Below are positions 4,421 to 61,307 of a DNA stretch of 64,000 nt, piece after piece. Below the pieces are notes generated by a model. The model saw nothing but the letters and a program-made list of their open reading frames with translations. It searched no databases and was not told the origin of the DNA. How positions within the stretch are numbered: position 1 is the first letter of the stretch; each line of letters opens with the position of its first letter. The DNA lies in contig CANQTF010000009.1 in the NCBI GenBank assembly GCA_947626745.1, forward strand, positions 1-64,000, in the 5' to 3' direction. The position numbers and the translations under genes are program-made. This DNA is from an uncultured Lachnospiraceae bacterium. GTDB taxonomy: Bacteria > Bacillota > Clostridia > Lachnospirales > Lachnospiraceae.

Positions 4421-5026
4421 ATGAACGATAAATTTTTTGATCTGAAAAAAGAAAAACAGGACCGCATGATCAACGCCGCGCTGAAAGTATTCGCCGCAAA
4501 CGGATACAGACACGCCAGCACCGACGACATTGTGGCCGAGGCCGGCATCAGCAAAGGGCTTTTATTCCATTATTTCGGGAACAAGATCGGCCTTTACGCC
4601 TTTCTGTACGACTACAGCGTCCGCTTCATGAAACTGGAATTGACTACCGGAGTCTCTTCCACCGCGAACGACTATTTCGAGATCCGCAAGCAGATCGAGT
4701 TTGCCAAGATGCAGGTGCTGAAGAATTATCCGCATATGCAGCGGTTTCTGGAACGCTGCGCTTCGGAGAACGTCAGCGAGGCGCTCGCAGCCATCGGGCC
4801 GCAGCGCGACACGATCCGGGAACTGTACAGCGATCTGAAGGGCCGGGCCGACCGCAGTCTTTTCTTAGACAACGTCTCCTTCGAGAAGCTGGATGCCATG
4901 TTGGATTACACGATCAGCGGAATCATGGCGGCGCACGCCGAAGAGCCGTCCTTCCGGCCGGAAGCGCTCTACGAGGAAGCCGTCTCCTACCTCGATATGA
5001 TGCGGGAGATCTCCTATCGGAAATAG
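4421..5026 (+). CDS. TetR/AcrR family transcriptional regulator
   Basis: N-terminal HTH RMINAALKVFAANGYRHASTDDIVAEAGISKGLLFHYFGNK. Confidence 0.92.
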   Translation: MNDKFFDLKKEKQDRMINAALKVFAANGYRHASTDDIVAEAGISKGLLFHYFGNKIGLYAFLYDYSVRFMKLELTTGVSSTANDYFEIRKQIEFAKMQVLKNYPHMQRFLERCASENVSEALAAIGPQRDTIRELYSDLKGRADRSLFLDNVSFEKLDAMLDYTISGIMAAHAEEPSFRPEALYEEAVSYLDMMREISYRK

Positions 5027-36522: not shown

Positions 36523-37266
36523 ATGACACGCAAAACCGATATCCTTTCCCCCAAATACGCGCTGGTCACCGGCGCATCGCGCGGCATCGGCGCAGCGATC
36601 GCCGAAGCCCTTGCAGCCGAGGGCTTCCACCTGTACCTGACCTGTCTGCGCTCCGCGGACAGGCTGGCCGAGCTGGCGGCAAGACTCTCCAGCGCATACG
36701 GCGTCAGGTGTACGCCTGTCGCGGCGGACATGGGCGATCCCAAGGACGTGGCGCGGCTCTTTGCGCAGATCGACTCGCTGGATCTCGTCGTCAACAACGC
36801 CGGCGTCTCCTATGTGGGGCTTCTGCACGAAATGTCCGACGCCGACTGGCAGGGCGTGATGCGGACGAATCTGGACAGCGTTTTCTATACAAGCCGTCTG
36901 GCGGTCCCGCTCATGCTCGCCAGGCACAGCGGCCGGATCATCAACATCTCTTCCGTCTGGGGAACCGTGGGCGCTTCCACGGAGGTCGCCTACTCGGCTT
37001 CGAAGGGCGGGGTCAACGGCTTCACGCGCGCGCTCGCCAAAGAACTTGCGCCCAGCGGCATCGCGGTCAACGCTATCGCCTGCGGCGTGATCGACACGGA
37101 AATGAACGGCTTCCTGTCTGCGGAGGACATGGAAGCCCTGCGCGCGGAGATTCCTGCTGACCGCATCGGTCAACCGTCGGAGGTGGCCGAGGCCGTCCTC
37201 TCGCTCTTACGCGCGCCGTCCTATTTGACCGGACAGGTCATCACGCTGGACGGCGGGTGGACGTAG
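36523..37266 (+). CDS. SDR family oxidoreductase (FabG-like)
   Basis: VTGASRGIGAAIAEAL, NNAG, YSASKGG; start trimmed to MTRKTDILSP. Confidence 0.9.
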   Translation: MTRKTDILSPKYALVTGASRGIGAAIAEALAAEGFHLYLTCLRSADRLAELAARLSSAYGVRCTPVAADMGDPKDVARLFAQIDSLDLVVNNAGVSYVGLLHEMSDADWQGVMRTNLDSVFYTSRLAVPLMLARHSGRIINISSVWGTVGASTEVAYSASKGGVNGFTRALAKELAPSGIAVNAIACGVIDTEMNGFLSAEDMEALRAEIPADRIGQPSEVAEAVLSLLRAPSYLTGQVITLDGGWT

Positions 37267-39034
37267 CAGCCTCTCCCCTTTCCGGCAGCTCCACAAGCGC
37301 CGTCATCAGGCAGAAGGGCGCGGAAAAGATCAGAAAATAGACATAGCGGAAATCCGCCGCCACCGGGGTGGCGATCATGACGGTGAGATACAGGGCGAGG
37401 TTCGGCAGATAACAGACGAGCTTCGCCTTTTCCTGTCTGACGAAGGCATTGGCGACGCCAAACAGCAGCAGCCAGAATGCCGCGCCCATGTTCCAGAGCA
37501 GCCCGTACAACGGCAGGATGCTTCCCATTTTCAGCGCGATCTCCTTGGCCTTGACGACGACGGGGCCGCCGATCAGCGGCGTGTGTGCCACGGGCAGCGT
37601 CGTCTCGCTGACGCCCTCTATATCCGCCGTCGTGTACAAGACGTCCGGATACCAGTAGCCGTATGTCTGATCGATATAGGCCTGCAGATAATCCGCCGGA
37701 TAGGCCAGCCCGAGCTGCACCCACAGCCGGAAGTAGGCCGCCTTGTGCTGCGCCAGATACTCCTGATCTCCGGCCCGCACCAGCTCCTTCATGTTGTCCG
37801 CGAAGCCCGGGCTGTACAGTTCTTTGATATAGCGCGTGTCGATGACCTTCTCGATCAGCGCCCTCTGCTCATTGTTTAAGGGCCTGTCGTGGCACAGGAC
37901 GGCGGCGATCTGCTGCGTCGGGATCGACAGCGATTCGATCAGATCCGGCTGCGCCACATGCAGCGCAGTCATGACCGGATATCTGACGATCGCCGCCGCC
38001 AGAAGGATCGACGCTATGGCGGGGAACAGCTTTTTCGCCTGACGGCGGTACGCAAACAGCAGGAACGGCACGCACAACAGGAAGCCGTACCAGCCGTTGC
38101 TGCGAAACAGGCAGATCATCACGCCCGAGCAGACAAACATGGCAAGCTCCGCCGCGCCGCACCTCTGCAGCATGCGCAGCATACTGCAGCCAAACAGCAT
38201 CACCGCCGCCGCAAACGGTATGTCCTTCCAGACCGTGACGGAAAATACCGCATGGTACGGCACCAGCGCATAGAAAAGGGCGAACAGGATCAAAACCGCC
38301 TTGCGGACGCGGTACCGCTCCAGCGTCCTCAGGAAGTAACAGACGCCAAACGCCAGAAAACACATCTGAAAGAAGGTATACAGCGCAACCGCCGACACCA
38401 TGCTGCCGGTCATGAAATACCCGATGTGATAGAACAGCGAAAAGAGCATGGTATGCGCAAAGGGGTGATGATTGCTGTATCCGATCAAGCCGACAGCCTG
38501 TTCCAGCTGGTTGATGCTGTCGGGCGTCATGACGCCCGGATACAGATACAGATAGTACGGGAGCCAGCACAGCAGACAGCCTGCAGCGCACCAGAGGCAC
38601 AGATGCTTCCCATGCCCTCCTTCCTCCCGGCAGAGCAGCCGCCCAAGCAGCTTCCTGTCGCCGCTGTAGGAGAAGAGAAAGAGAAGCGCCTTGCAGAAGC
38701 AGACGAAAAATCCGATGCAGACCGCCGCCAGCACGACGCCCCTGTAGAGCCCGCTCGTCAGCGCCTCCACGTACCGCCCGTGATCCGCCAGCACATAGGT
38801 CAGTGTATAGACAGCAGCCAAGAGCGCGGCCGCCGCCCGCGCCGTCCGCGTATCGGCAGACGGCCTGTCCGCCAGACGGCCGTCGATATGCCTGTACAAA
38901 ATATAGAATGTCAGGAAGAGTACGCCCGTCAGAAGGTTGCCCGGCCGCATACTGCCGGCCTTCATAAAGGCCCAGGATGTAAAAAAGCTCTCCGCCAGAT
39001 TCCGTATGGTGTGTTTGCAATCTTTTGTGTTCAT
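37241..39034 (-). CDS. Large polytopic membrane protein (DUF6020-like)
   Basis: Many TM helices; MTPDSINQLEQAVGLIGYSNHHPFAHTMLFSLFYHIG. Confidence 0.6.
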   Translation of the reverse strand: MNTKDCKHTIRNLAESFFTSWAFMKAGSMRPGNLLTGVLFLTFYILYRHIDGRLADRPSADTRTARAAAALLAAVYTLTYVLADHGRYVEALTSGLYRGVVLAAVCIGFFVCFCKALLFLFSYSGDRKLLGRLLCREEGGHGKHLCLWCAAGCLLCWLPYYLYLYPGVMTPDSINQLEQAVGLIGYSNHHPFAHTMLFSLFYHIGYFMTGSMVSAVALYTFFQMCFLAFGVCYFLRTLERYRVRKAVLILFALFYALVPYHAVFSVTVWKDIPFAAAVMLFGCSMLRMLQRCGAAELAMFVCSGVMICLFRSNGWYGFLLCVPFLLFAYRRQAKKLFPAIASILLAAAIVRYPVMTALHVAQPDLIESLSIPTQQIAAVLCHDRPLNNEQRALIEKVIDTRYIKELYSPGFADNMKELVRAGDQEYLAQHKAAYFRLWVQLGLAYPADYLQAYIDQTYGYWYPDVLYTTADIEGVSETTLPVAHTPLIGGPVVVKAKEIALKMGSILPLYGLLWNMGAAFWLLLFGVANAFVRQEKAKLVCYLPNLALYLTVMIATPVAADFRYVYFLIFSAPFCLMTALVELPERGEAATSTRRPA

Positions 39035-39076: not shown

Positions 39077-41116
39077 CTAGCGCACAAGCAGCAGCGCGGA
39101 CGCCGCCGCGTCCTGTTCGTCAAAAGAGGCGTACTGCAGCATGACATCGTCGAGCACCGTCTCCGCCCCGGCGTCCAGCACCGTGATCCTGATGTCCGAC
39201 GCCTCGTCGTTCAGTACCCCGTCCAGCTCGGCCCTCTCTTCCGCCGTGAGCGTATCCTGCCCCTGCACGGTCCGCCCTTCTCCGCTGCCGCGCAGCACGA
39301 ACACGCCGCCCACGCTGCCGACGCTCTCCCGCGTCACGCCAAGCGCCTCAAATGCAGACGCATACCGCTCATCCTGCAGGACTTCCGCGTTATTGATCTT
39401 AAGCGCCGCCGTACAGTCCGCATATTTTAAAGCCTGAAGATAATACGCCGTGTCGGTGAACGTGGAAAACTGCACCTGCAGTTCATAGGCCGTCCTTCCG
39501 TCATCGTGCGTCCGGTTCAGCTCCTCATAGTAACGATCCGTCTCCCGCAGCCGTTGTGCCACATACGCCCGAAAAGTGTCCAGTCCCGCAGACGCTTCCG
39601 TGTAAGTGCCTTCCGGCCATCTCTCCATTTCCCGCCGATATGCGCCGGACAGGTAGATCTCTCTCTCGTACGCGTCCAGCATGGCGCCGATCGTCTCGTC
39701 CGACCAGGCCGATTCCCGCAGACGCCTGTACTTTTCATAGATCCGATCCCATGCGCCGCCGTCGCCGTTCACCAGGATCTGATTCAGATACCCGCTCTGC
39801 ATGAGCACATGATTGGACGGGGTGAGCTGATACGGGGACACCAGATTCACCGACAGATCGTTCGCGAACCAGTTGCCCCACGTGAGATCCATGTCCCAAG
39901 GGGCGTACAGCGCCGTAGGCCCGTTCTCTCCCGCGCGTATCGCGAGGTACAGATTTTTGATATTTTTGCCGCCGACGTTATCTCCACCCTGAATCAGGTT
40001 AAAAAACAGATAGATGTCTATGGCGTTGTCGATGTCGATGCCCGCGTACAATCTCTCATTGTCACCGCGGCCTTCCCATAGGGCATAATAATAATCCAAT
40101 AGCGGCGCCCAATTCCTTTTCGCCTCGTTGACCGCTCCCTTGATGCGGAATCCCACCGGATTGCCGCCCTCCGTAAAAGCGATGCTGCCGTCCGCAGACC
40201 AGATCACGCCCTTGTATAATCCGTCTTCGCCCGAATCGGGATCCAGCATGAGCTGTTTCTCGTCGATCGGATAGCCCAGCGCATACAAGCCCCAGTATTC
40301 TCCGTTCATAAACAGCTCCAGATACTTATATTCCGTCCCCGTGTCAACTCCCAGCGCATTGTCATCGGCGCAGGAGGCTTTCCACAGGTTGGCGCAGAAT
40401 ACGTTCCTGACCTTTTCCTGATCGTTGTAGGCCGGGTAGAGGATCCAGTCGTCGTCCTGCCGCATGCCCAGAAGAGAGACCTGATTGGAACGGGTATGAT
40501 TGCCCGCAGAATCCGTGACAAGAGACAGACGGTATCCCTTTTTCGGAAACGCCGTCGTGGTGTTGCCCCGCACATGGATCGTTCCGTCCGACACCGCAAC
40601 GCGTTTTACCGCGCCGTCCGCGTTGTCAAACAGCGTCATATGCATGGCCGCCATATCTTCCCCGATCTCGCCGCCGTCATATTCGATGTTCATGAGCGGG
40701 AGCGTCGTACATTTCAGCGTAAACCGCGCGTACGACTTATCCGTATAGAGAAGAAAACTGATGCCGGTATCGGCGGCGATCGCTTCGTCCGTGATGCTTT
40801 CCTCCAGAAAAGCGATCTTTACACCTCTCTCCCTGCTCTGTATCCTGATGTGCGGGTCGTATGCCCCGGCGTCGCCCTGTACCAGCGAATAATAATAGGT
40901 ACCCGACATGACATCGCACTGCAGCGCTTCGTCGTCAAACAGCAGCCGTTCCGGCAGACCCAGAGACGCGCTGCGTTCCGCCATGACAGCCTCGAACTCA
41001 TTTTCCGTCATCACACACGCCGAATAGCGAAACGGCCGCCCGCGAAAGCATACCAGACAGATCCCGGCGGCCGCCGACAGGATCAGGATGATGATACCGA
41101 GCGCCTTCTTCATCAC
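39077..41116 (-). CDS. CotH kinase family protein
   Basis: VRGNTTTAFPKKGYRLSL, DDDWILYPAYNDQEKVRNVF, LYAPWDMDLTWG. Confidence 0.88.
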   Translation of the reverse strand: MMKKALGIIILILSAAAGICLVCFRGRPFRYSACVMTENEFEAVMAERSASLGLPERLLFDDEALQCDVMSGTYYYSLVQGDAGAYDPHIRIQSRERGVKIAFLEESITDEAIAADTGISFLLYTDKSYARFTLKCTTLPLMNIEYDGGEIGEDMAAMHMTLFDNADGAVKRVAVSDGTIHVRGNTTTAFPKKGYRLSLVTDSAGNHTRSNQVSLLGMRQDDDWILYPAYNDQEKVRNVFCANLWKASCADDNALGVDTGTEYKYLELFMNGEYWGLYALGYPIDEKQLMLDPDSGEDGLYKGVIWSADGSIAFTEGGNPVGFRIKGAVNEAKRNWAPLLDYYYALWEGRGDNERLYAGIDIDNAIDIYLFFNLIQGGDNVGGKNIKNLYLAIRAGENGPTALYAPWDMDLTWGNWFANDLSVNLVSPYQLTPSNHVLMQSGYLNQILVNGDGGAWDRIYEKYRRLRESAWSDETIGAMLDAYEREIYLSGAYRREMERWPEGTYTEASAGLDTFRAYVAQRLRETDRYYEELNRTHDDGRTAYELQVQFSTFTDTAYYLQALKYADCTAALKINNAEVLQDERYASAFEALGVTRESVGSVGGVFVLRGSGEGRTVQGQDTLTAEERAELDGVLNDEASDIRITVLDAGAETVLDDVMLQYASFDEQDAAASALLLVR

Positions 41117-41712
41117 AGGATATCCTCGCTGTCATACGCTATGACGGAGGAGCGCTCCACACCGGCTTCCCGCAAGTCCGCCGCCAACTCCCCGGGATCC
41201 TTGACGGACAGCTCTACCACCATATCCAGATCATCGCCCACATAATTCCTGCTCTTGATGCGGTATCTGGGCGTATGCGCCGCGATCCTCTCCGTGACAT
41301 CGGCTTCCTTCTGCGCATCACAGTGCAGGACCAGCACAAAGGGCTTCCTGCCGATATGGATATGTTCAAAACAGAGCATGACGACGGTGACCATCAGGGA
41401 AGTCAGCACCGCCAGCTCGTATAGCTGACACCCGCATGTGATGCCGATATGCACGGACCACATCAGATACAGCATGTCAACGGGATCCTTGATCGCCGTC
41501 CTGAAACGCAGGATCGCCAGTGCGCCGATCGTGCCCAGCGTGATCACGATGTTGGACTGCAGACTGAAGATAATGGTGGAGATGAAAAACGGAAGGACCG
41601 CGATGCAGATATGGAACGATCGGTTATAGAAGGCCCTGTGGGACACGAGCCTGTATACCATAAATTCGTATACGCTCAAGATCAGCACCATAAGCAGCAC
41701 CGAAAGGATCAC
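41113..41712 (-). CDS. DUF4956 membrane protein (annotated GTG start; see finding on the upstream 23-aa ORF)
   Basis: ITLGTIGALAILRFRTAIKDPVDMLYLMWSVHIGITCG; ATGA overlap with CotH gene. Confidence 0.85.
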   Translation of the reverse strand: MILSVLLMVLILSVYEFMVYRLVSHRAFYNRSFHICIAVLPFFISTIIFSLQSNIVITLGTIGALAILRFRTAIKDPVDMLYLMWSVHIGITCGCQLYELAVLTSLMVTVVMLCFEHIHIGRKPFVLVLHCDAQKEADVTERIAAHTPRYRIKSRNYVGDDLDMVVELSVKDPGELAADLREAGVERSSVIAYDSEDIL

Positions 41713-41713
41713 T

Positions 41714-41785
41714 TTAGCCCCCCCCCACTACGGGATTGGCGTATGCACTCGCAATGTTTTCCAAGATATCCTGTATCATATTCAT
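41714..41785 (-). CDS. 23-aa ORF (MNMIQDILENIASAYANPVVGGG) ending in a G9 tract; probable true N-terminus of DUF4956
   Basis: AGAGGAG RBS and ATG; stop TAA lies one base before the DUF4956 GTG; deleting one G joins the two frames. Confidence 0.6.
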   Translation of the reverse strand: MNMIQDILENIASAYANPVVGGG

Positions 41786-41863
41786 TGTTTTTCTCCTCTT
41801 TGCCGTATCCGCACGGCCGTCTGTATTCTTTTTGCCGGCGCTGCCTCCCGACAGCCGGACGCG

Positions 41864-42571
41864 CTATCTTCCCATCCGCTGCAGCGTCTTTCTTCCCAGC
41901 GCATACTTGGAAAAAGACGACTGGATCAGATGATGATCCGTAACGATATGCTTGATATAAGAAGGCAGGATATGATCGAACTTGACCTCCAGCACATGCT
42001 CCCCTGCCTCTTGGATCGGATAGCAGAGATATCCGCCGTCCGTGAAACGGCCAAAATCATCGGAGACGGATATATTCTGATCCATCGTGATCCGTATGTT
42101 GGTGATCTTCTCCACATAGGCGCGCCTCTCAAAGTCGATCACCGCCGCGGGTGCAAGAAGCCCCGTCATACAGCGGACGCAGAACATCTGCAGGAGCGGC
42201 TCGTCCGTCCGCCAGAACACCTCCCCTGCACGGCCCGCCATGATCAGCGCCAGCTCTTCGGCCGTGATCGGGCAGCTCGTCTTGTGGCAGCGCCCCTCCG
42301 ATTTCTCCTTGCGTTCCAGACGCAGCCTGTCGCTGCGGTCATTGTAGTAGCGGACACGGTATTTCACCCGCTCCGACAGCCCCAGATCGTTTGCCCTGGC
42401 ACAGGCATTCGTATAGTCGTCAAAATAGAGGCTGCGGATACGGTATCTGCCGTCCGCGCCGCCGTATTCGTCCTTGTCCATGACCGCATCCAGTCTGCTG
42501 CCTATGATCTGCAGTTCGTTCAGGCTGCAGCAGTACTTCCACTCATTTCTGTATACTTTGATCTTCCTCAC
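41864..42571 (-). CDS. VTC-domain polyphosphate polymerase-like protein
   Basis: RNEWKYCCS...YRIRSLYFDDYTN, KYRVRYYNDRSDRLRLERKEKSEGRCHKTSC, VIDFERRAY, EVKFDHILP. Confidence 0.88.
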   Translation of the reverse strand: MRKIKVYRNEWKYCCSLNELQIIGSRLDAVMDKDEYGGADGRYRIRSLYFDDYTNACARANDLGLSERVKYRVRYYNDRSDRLRLERKEKSEGRCHKTSCPITAEELALIMAGRAGEVFWRTDEPLLQMFCVRCMTGLLAPAAVIDFERRAYVEKITNIRITMDQNISVSDDFGRFTDGGYLCYPIQEAGEHVLEVKFDHILPSYIKHIVTDHHLIQSSFSKYALGRKTLQRMGR

Positions 42572-44054
42572 CTCCGGCCGGAGCGGATGCGTCCGGTTTC
42601 AGCCACGGGCTGTAGGCGGCTTCCGGAACGGGCTGGGGCAGATAACGCGACCGCAGCTCGTTGGGGCGCGAGGAATAGACTTCCACCGCAAATCGGTAAG
42701 ACCCGCCCGAGTGTCCCCAGCTTGCCACGTCAAACCAGACGCCTCTGCCTATCTCCATGATCTCCGCCTTGCTCCATATGTTATTGCCGATACAGTTGCC
42801 GGCCTCATCGTAAAAGCTCACATTAAAGCGATCTTTGCTGTCGTAGTCGTCCATATTTTCCCACGCGGCACAGTACGACCCCCCCCCGCTTTTCCGGTCA
42901 TAAAGCACATCCCATTTCAGTCCGACAGGCTCCGGGATCACAGGCGCGTCCTCTCCGGTGTACACAAAAACATCGGAGACGACGTACGGGCTGTCCGCAT
43001 AGGCGACGCCGTCCCCTGCCGCCGACACGGTATAATAATAGCTGCCGTTCTCCCCGAACCCTTGCGCAAGGGCGACCGCATATTCGCCCTCCTCGTTGAC
43101 GGAAAAATTGCCCCACATATCGCCGTTCATGACGCACAGATCACTTTCCGGATCGGGCTCCTGTTCCGATTCGCACCTATAGAGCCTGTACCGGTAAGCC
43201 ATCTCACCGTTGACGCCGCTCTCCGGCACGACGCCCCACAGGGCGGTGCCCGTCTCCCCGTCCCAGTGCGGATCTTCCGGCGCCGGCAGCGCTGCCGGAA
43301 AGCCGTCGGCCACAGCAGACGCTTCTTCCCGCGGCATCCGCAGACTCCATGCCGCCGCACCGGCCAGACAGCACACGATTGCCGCGGCCGACAGGCATAA
43401 AAGCTGCGTCCTGACGCCGAACAGATCTCTTTTGACCGCTTTGACGGAATCGTACCGCTTATCGGGATCCAAGCTTGTGCATTTCCGAAGCGCCTTCCTG
43501 TAGCGCGGTCTGTCCGCCGCGCTTCCCATGAGCTGTCTGAGCGTGACGCCGAGCGCATAGATATCCGCCCTGCAGTCGGTCTGCGCAAAGCCGTATTGTT
43601 CCGGCGGCGCATACCCTCTCGTGCCGAGCAGACTGGTATCCTGCTCCAGATCGTCCTTCGGCATACGGGCCGCGTCAAAGTCGATCAGGCGGATATGGCC
43701 GTCCCCCGCCAGCAGGATATTGGACGGTTTGATGTCCCTGTGTATGATATTCTTCTCATGCAGAAACGCCAGCACATCGCACAACTCCCGCACGGCCCGC
43801 ATCAGCTTCCTGCCGGACAGATCGGCGCTCCCGATCGACACGCCCTCTATGTACTCTTCTATGACCGTTACGGAATCGGCCGTCTGATCCACCTCGTAGA
43901 TCTTAGGCAGATAAGGGTGCGGACAGTCGCGCAGGACTGTGAAGACCTCGTGTCTGCCTTTTAATATCTTCCTGATGTAAAGACCGTCGCTGCGCACCAG
44001 CTCTACCGTGCTCTTGCCGCTCTCTTTGATCCGTCTGACCACTTCGCAGTCCAT
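42543..44054 (-). CDS. Transmembrane Ser/Thr protein kinase with extracellular sensor domain
   Basis: HRDIKPSNILL, LIDFDAARM, GTRGYAPPEQYG; TM LLCLSAAAIVCCLAGAAAWSL. Confidence 0.9.
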   Translation of the reverse strand: MDCEVVRRIKESGKSTVELVRSDGLYIRKILKGRHEVFTVLRDCPHPYLPKIYEVDQTADSVTVIEEYIEGVSIGSADLSGRKLMRAVRELCDVLAFLHEKNIIHRDIKPSNILLAGDGHIRLIDFDAARMPKDDLEQDTSLLGTRGYAPPEQYGFAQTDCRADIYALGVTLRQLMGSAADRPRYRKALRKCTSLDPDKRYDSVKAVKRDLFGVRTQLLCLSAAAIVCCLAGAAAWSLRMPREEASAVADGFPAALPAPEDPHWDGETGTALWGVVPESGVNGEMAYRYRLYRCESEQEPDPESDLCVMNGDMWGNFSVNEEGEYAVALAQGFGENGSYYYTVSAAGDGVAYADSPYVVSDVFVYTGEDAPVIPEPVGLKWDVLYDRKSGGGSYCAAWENMDDYDSKDRFNVSFYDEAGNCIGNNIWSKAEIMEIGRGVWFDVASWGHSGGSYRFAVEVYSSRPNELRSRYLPQPVPEAAYSPWLKPDASAPAGGEEDQSIQK

Positions 44055-61045: not shown

Positions 61046-61307
61046 CTCTTGTCTTTTCCCTCCAATAGCTATAACAGTTATATACTTTCCAAAGTGTATT
61101 TTAACACTTTTTGGCAAAAATGTACAGAAAAATTTGGCGTCACCCCCCCCCTTTGTGATTTTTGCCTATTATTGTGCATTCTGCCGCAAAATCTATAGAA
61201 TAATTGTCTTTCAATCGTCAAATGATTATGGTAAAATAGGACTAGGGCGAGTGCTGTCGGTTTGCCGCAGCCTGGTCCGATATATGCAAACGCAAGGAGG
61301 ATCAGTT

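Follow-up and report, generated by a model that had tools for sequence, protein, structure and literature searches.

Poly-G contingency loci have been described chiefly in Gram-negative mucosal bacteria, of which Campylobacter and Neisseria are the best known, with single loci in bifidobacteria. Campylobacter lacks mismatch repair, and in the porA and opc genes of Neisseria a homopolymer between the -35 and -10 boxes sets the spacing and the strength of the promoter. In the Campylobacter phasome, each strain carries 5 to 81 poly-G genes, tract length peaks at nine (53%), and the tracts lie mostly in reading frames, with the G on the coding strand, and also in promoter regions (PhasomeIt, PMC6321876). 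In the sortase-pilus switch of Bifidobacterium breve, a G tract annotated as G10 or G11 lies early in the first gene of the surface operon and the frame decides expression; slippage has been measured there by deep sequencing, at one or two loci per genome (PMC9187656). Besides, CotH, polyphosphate polymerase and DUF4956 genes, the trio found around the tract described here, occur in streptococci and clostridia as neighbours of the pel exopolysaccharide genes (PMC7112168).

Here we analysed a tract of nine Gs at a DUF4956 gene in a 64,000-nucleotide stretch of DNA (hereafter, the window) from an uncultured Lachnospiraceae bacterium. A preliminary description had read this tract as either a phase-variable switch or a sequencing error. 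Our results indicate that it is probably a contingency locus, one of a genome-wide set that resembles the poly-G phasome of Campylobacter and would act at both the translational and the transcriptional level, with slippage around nine bases.

Results

The G9 tract and the start of the DUF4956 protein

On the minus strand the locus reads AGAGGAGAAAAACA-ATG(41785)...CCC GTA GTG GGG GGG GGC TAA(41716-41714) A GTG(41712). The exact run of nine Gs (41718..41726, minus strand), assigned as the putative switch on its run length and its membership in a genome-wide class, begins 60 nt into the frame from the ATG and leaves MNMIQDILENIASAYANPVVGGG-stop and DUF4956 one base out of register, as first described. 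The TAA ends the 23-codon ORF (41714..41785, minus strand) at codon 24, and GTG 41712, one base later, mechanically opens the DUF4956 body (41113..41712, minus strand), a frame of 199 residues. The preliminary description had also held that eight Gs would let the frame run on into DUF4956 and that the short ORF has its own ribosome-binding site, and both points were borne out: translation across an eight-G tract gives 22 residues fused to DUF4956, reading ...NPVVGGAKVILSVLL..., and the site AGAGGAG (41793..41799, minus strand) has its AGGAG 7 nt from ATG 41785.

The DUF4956 protein is therefore predicted to begin at MNMIQDIL (ATG 41785), the start proposed earlier, since a homologous N-terminus behind a Shine-Dalgarno sequence is common to five sister species, which have GTC, ATC or ATT in place of the internal GTG; comparison of the homologue N-termini found none that starts there. 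The 23-codon ORF and its stop would then be the true N-terminus of the protein in an out-of-frame (G9) state, while GTG 41712 is peculiar to this genome, where the arrangement TAA-A-GTG could permit weak re-initiation.

The protein belongs to the DUF4956 family (PF16316), with 48 bits against a curated Pfam cut-off of 30.6 (E 1.5e-12), and scored 25.1 bits against the MgtC family (PF02308), below the cut-off of 31.4. The AlphaFold model of the full protein had a mean pLDDT of 58 and was usable for the C-terminal domain only, whose best fold matches in this low-confidence model were MgtC C-terminal domains. Assignment to the MgtC family was rejected, because the likeness is structural and restricted to that domain and the Pfam score lies under the cut-off. 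In the same low-confidence model, the glycines encoded by the tract follow a short predicted N-terminal helix and precede the first membrane helix, a position that tolerates glycines, and a product starting at GTG 41712 retains the first predicted membrane helix.

Genomic context of the locus

The gene lies in an operon with a VTC-domain (polyphosphate-polymerase-like) gene (41864..42571, minus strand), which is kept in the five sister species, and a CotH-type kinase gene (39077..41113, minus strand). The ATG of the CotH gene overlaps the DUF4956 stop (TGATG), so that translation of the two genes may be coupled. The next gene after CotH encodes a DUF6020 membrane protein (37241..39034, minus strand), an order that recurs in three sister species. 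Upstream of VTC, a protein-kinase-domain gene (42543..44054, minus strand) has an in-frame G9 tract, the second in the window (42879..42887, minus strand), and no homologue of this gene was found in roughly 4 kb upstream of VTC at the sister loci. The operon of sister species G005 (L091) has a further G9 tract at 1541-1549, about 2.6 kb upstream of its VTC gene. The third G9 tract of the window (61143..61151, minus strand) precedes the ATG of a chemotaxis-receptor gene by about 97 bp, outside any clear -35/-10 pair. A Pel accessory cassette would be contiguous with pelDEADAFG; on reading through the neighbouring ORFs, no pel-type gene was recognised.

Tract state in sister species

The genome's nearest relatives belong to its own genus and have public records as rabbit-gut Lachnospiraceae assemblies, and all comparisons of tract state rely on one genome per species. 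The frame is open in G010 (GTAGT-G9-AAAGGTC) and in G018, where an interrupted tract, GTGGTGGGCGGAGCC, has no pure run. It is shut in the present genome (G000) and in G005 and G095, both of which read GTGGT-G9-CAAAA, one base too many. G096 has G8, which keeps the frame through the tract. Separately, a few dozen bases downstream, this copy lacks one base (L093, near 4960-5010); either the gene is broken or the assembly slipped there. Both ON and OFF states are thus represented among close relatives. Species at 60-70% identity are without a tract at the DUF4956 site, and in G013 a distantly related DUF4956 paralogue is likewise out of frame, with a G10 tract in a glycine stretch of its own, where its relatives have the interrupted GGCGGCGGA.

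The downstream DUF4956 frame of the present genome is fully open and 88-91% identical to that of the in-frame relatives. A FastTree analysis of VTC and CotH, with local support values, placed G000 apart from G005 and G095, with in-frame species branching between them, so that the +1 state would have arisen at least twice or reverted; on this tree, at least two +1 changes, or an equivalent that includes a reversion, would be needed.

Genome-wide distribution of G runs

The present genome contains 1, 4, 45, and 1 exact runs of seven, eight, nine, and ten Gs, against approximately 51, 9, 1.7, and 0.3 expected when the decay of shorter runs in the window is extrapolated. Within the window, G/C runs of one to five bases number 19847, 5683, 1021, 197, and 37, none has six to eight bases, and three have nine, against 0.04 predicted by the same extrapolation. 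Raw abundance of runs of eight or more Gs was dropped as a test in favor of the run-length distribution because dinucleotide shuffles give similar numbers: the six overlapping matches in the window are unremarkable, being reached by 14 of 100 shuffles, and the shuffle does not flag them since the long runs themselves raise the GG count.

The peak at nine is common to nine species of the genus (63, 495, and 50 runs of G8, G9, and G10, summed), and G9 makes up 64-90% of the G8-G10 runs in each. Nearly all other members of the genus have at most 20 G9 runs, the exceptions being G022 (22) and G030 (31), and among 295 genomes of the order this genome alone had more than 24. In G020, G007, and G006, many G8 runs, often flanked by C, occur with few G9 runs, which appears to be a different G-run habit. 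Hardly any runs of six or seven Gs occur in the sequence examined, namely the window and the stretches around the tracts in a draft assembly that is 83.5% complete in 49 contigs, though runs of nine are common; some process seems to purge G runs of intermediate length. In five cases a tract comes within 300 bp of a contig end, against 0.56 expected, and both length mixtures and poor Illumina reading of G runs would give contig breaks near tracts.

MutS1 scored over its family cut-off in 74 of 77 genus members, and in the present genome it is also encoded by an open frame, so that loss of MutS was ruled out as the cause of the tracts and the mutation rate may be low.

Location of the tracts in reading frames and promoters

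Thirty coding tracts had a start supported by a ribosome site, about 19 of them in frame and 11 out, an approximate split that hangs on the choice of start codon, with TTG or alternative starts behind some of the calls (L099; L103 at 7248; L130 at 8321). Among the out-of-frame tracts, seven need one G fewer and four need one more. About ten tracts were not assignable to the coding or the promoter class. In L123 (3031, minus strand), the gene runs the other way and a 565-aa open frame has poly-C on its coding strand, the sole such exception in the genome.

The genes carrying tracts are mostly surface-polysaccharide, envelope, and sensing genes, so that the genome fits the description of a phasome, with tens of over-represented tracts at surface genes. 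According to Pfam they include glycosyltransferases, FkbM, TylF and other methyltransferases, Acyl_transf_3, MBOAT, polysaccharide deacetylases, DUF6056, an extracellular solute-binding protein, an Ig-like/beta-helix protein, a chemotaxis receptor, and two CotH kinases besides the operon's own. One of these CotH genes, in L107 (G000:C4:126500-137100), has its G9 in frame and stands beside a second DUF4956 gene (C4:125801-126424); the other, in L099 (G000:C1:291200-297200), has its G9 out of frame. Two fatty-acid-type genes also carry tracts (L121). In the out-of-frame acyltransferase of L125, the domain itself is cut by the tract, since the downstream piece begins at profile position 39.

Eight tracts of this genome separate a TTGACA box from a -10-like box (C1:87509, C1:409973, C2:47855, C4:73907, C7:217, C9:98591, C10:6460, and C17:22474). 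A genus-wide pattern search recovered 81 distinct sites of this promoter type in 34 of 77 genomes, against one for the reversed pattern, some of the 81 looking related to one another and thus not being independent. The spacer measures 19 bp in 43 of these sites, with 8 to 11 Gs, and the feature that is kept seems to be spacer length rather than the number of Gs. In 57 sites the tract lies directly against the -10 box.

Discussion

The DUF4956 tract has the arrangement of a poly-G phase-variable locus, that is, a pure run reaching the usual minimum of 7-8 Gs inside a frame, in which adding or removing a single G would open or shut the frame of the gene. The occurrence of both frame states among sister species, together with the membership of the tract in a class arranged like known phase-variable loci, supports the switch of the preliminary description. 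In the proposed mechanism, replication slippage would add or remove one G; with nine Gs, as in the consensus, the ribosome would stop after 23 codons (the OFF state), and with eight it would read the whole DUF4956 protein. Expression of the overlapping CotH gene would fall in the OFF state, by an inferred polarity, and would probably be restored in the ON state. Tracts in reading frames would likewise give translational switching, and those in -35/-10 spacers transcriptional switching. From these sequences we infer that the tracts slip in living populations, that expression goes ON and OFF, that CotH is subject to polarity, and that switching brings a benefit.

Several observations could also be explained without a switch. 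If the true tract had eight Gs and the assembly were in error, the gene would always be on, and indeed the draft is incomplete (83.5%, 49 contigs) and G tracts are hard to read (PMC9187656). However, the same +1 state occurs in G005 and G095, which are separate assemblies, 19 coding tracts are in frame at nine Gs while the out-of-frame ones shift in both directions, and the peak at nine extends to promoters, where frame is irrelevant; a systematic slip is unlikely when nine separate assemblies have the same peak, and we consider an error at this site improbable. A permanently broken, decaying pseudogene, in which the tract is a plain frameshift, would agree with the shut frame in three of six species and with the further one-base deletion of the G096 copy. 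Yet the frame downstream is fully open with 88-91% identity to in-frame relatives, the whole operon is conserved, and the +1 sits precisely at a tract prone to slippage and either originated repeatedly or reverted, which makes decay a very improbable account of the locus.

The tightness of the length at nine across many genes and species might instead point to a fixed tract at which slippage of RNA polymerase or of the ribosome yields both frames from one DNA. This is quite improbable, given that promoter-spacer tracts act before transcription and that a slippage signal would not be tied to one frame, since the in-frame length at the DUF4956 site differs between sisters (G8 here, G9-A in G010). 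The least probable reading takes the short form from GTG 41712 as a genuine second product, translated by re-initiation once the 23-codon ORF has ended; the TAA and the GTG are one base apart and the low-confidence model retains the first membrane helix in this form, but the GTG is missing from all five sisters, including the two that share the out-of-frame state.

A contingency locus thus remains our preferred reading, although the sharp peak at nine, with few tracts caught at other lengths, counts against switching. Tentatively, and with more doubt than conviction, the length might be held at nine in a phasome peculiar to this clade by something more specific than random slippage, as the near purge of six- to seven-G runs, the intact MutS, the constancy of nine Gs while the flanking bases change, and promoters built with a 19-bp spacer whose G tract abuts the -10 box would suggest.

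If this reading is true, with about 50 loci in one gut Lachnospiraceae-type genome and a clade sharing them, some of the surface variation in this abundant group would come from switching rather than from stable inheritance, and gene callers would assign wrong starts to tract-bearing genes or break them up. For the operon studied here, the same reading would suggest a cell-surface role of the poorly understood VTC/DUF4956/CotH system. We found no report in the literature of phase variation in this trio and no paper on homopolymer phase variation or a phasome in Lachnospiraceae, in a search that was thin on subscription papers and preprints; the mechanism is already known, and its scale in this lineage looks unreported.

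Compared with the Pel accessory genes (PMC7112168), the locus has the same three families, CotH, polyphosphate polymerase, and DUF4956, side by side, but here DUF6020 follows the trio. As in the B. breve switch, the tract is an early one in a Gram-positive gut host, whereas about 50 tracts, known from sequence, replace the few pilus loci of that species. The homopolymers between -35 and -10 boxes recall porA and opc of Neisseria, with the difference that the commonest spacer here measures 19 bp and that the Gs usually run right up to the -10 box. The closest resemblance is to the Campylobacter phasome, which likewise has many tracts per genome, a peak at nine, and tracts in both frames and promoters. 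It differs in belonging to another phylum and in mismatch repair, MutS1 being present in our genome; the Lachnospiraceae tracts, in turn, show a sharper peak at nine in each species, near absence of six- and seven-G runs in the stretches examined, and a promoter class with a modal spacer of 19 bp.
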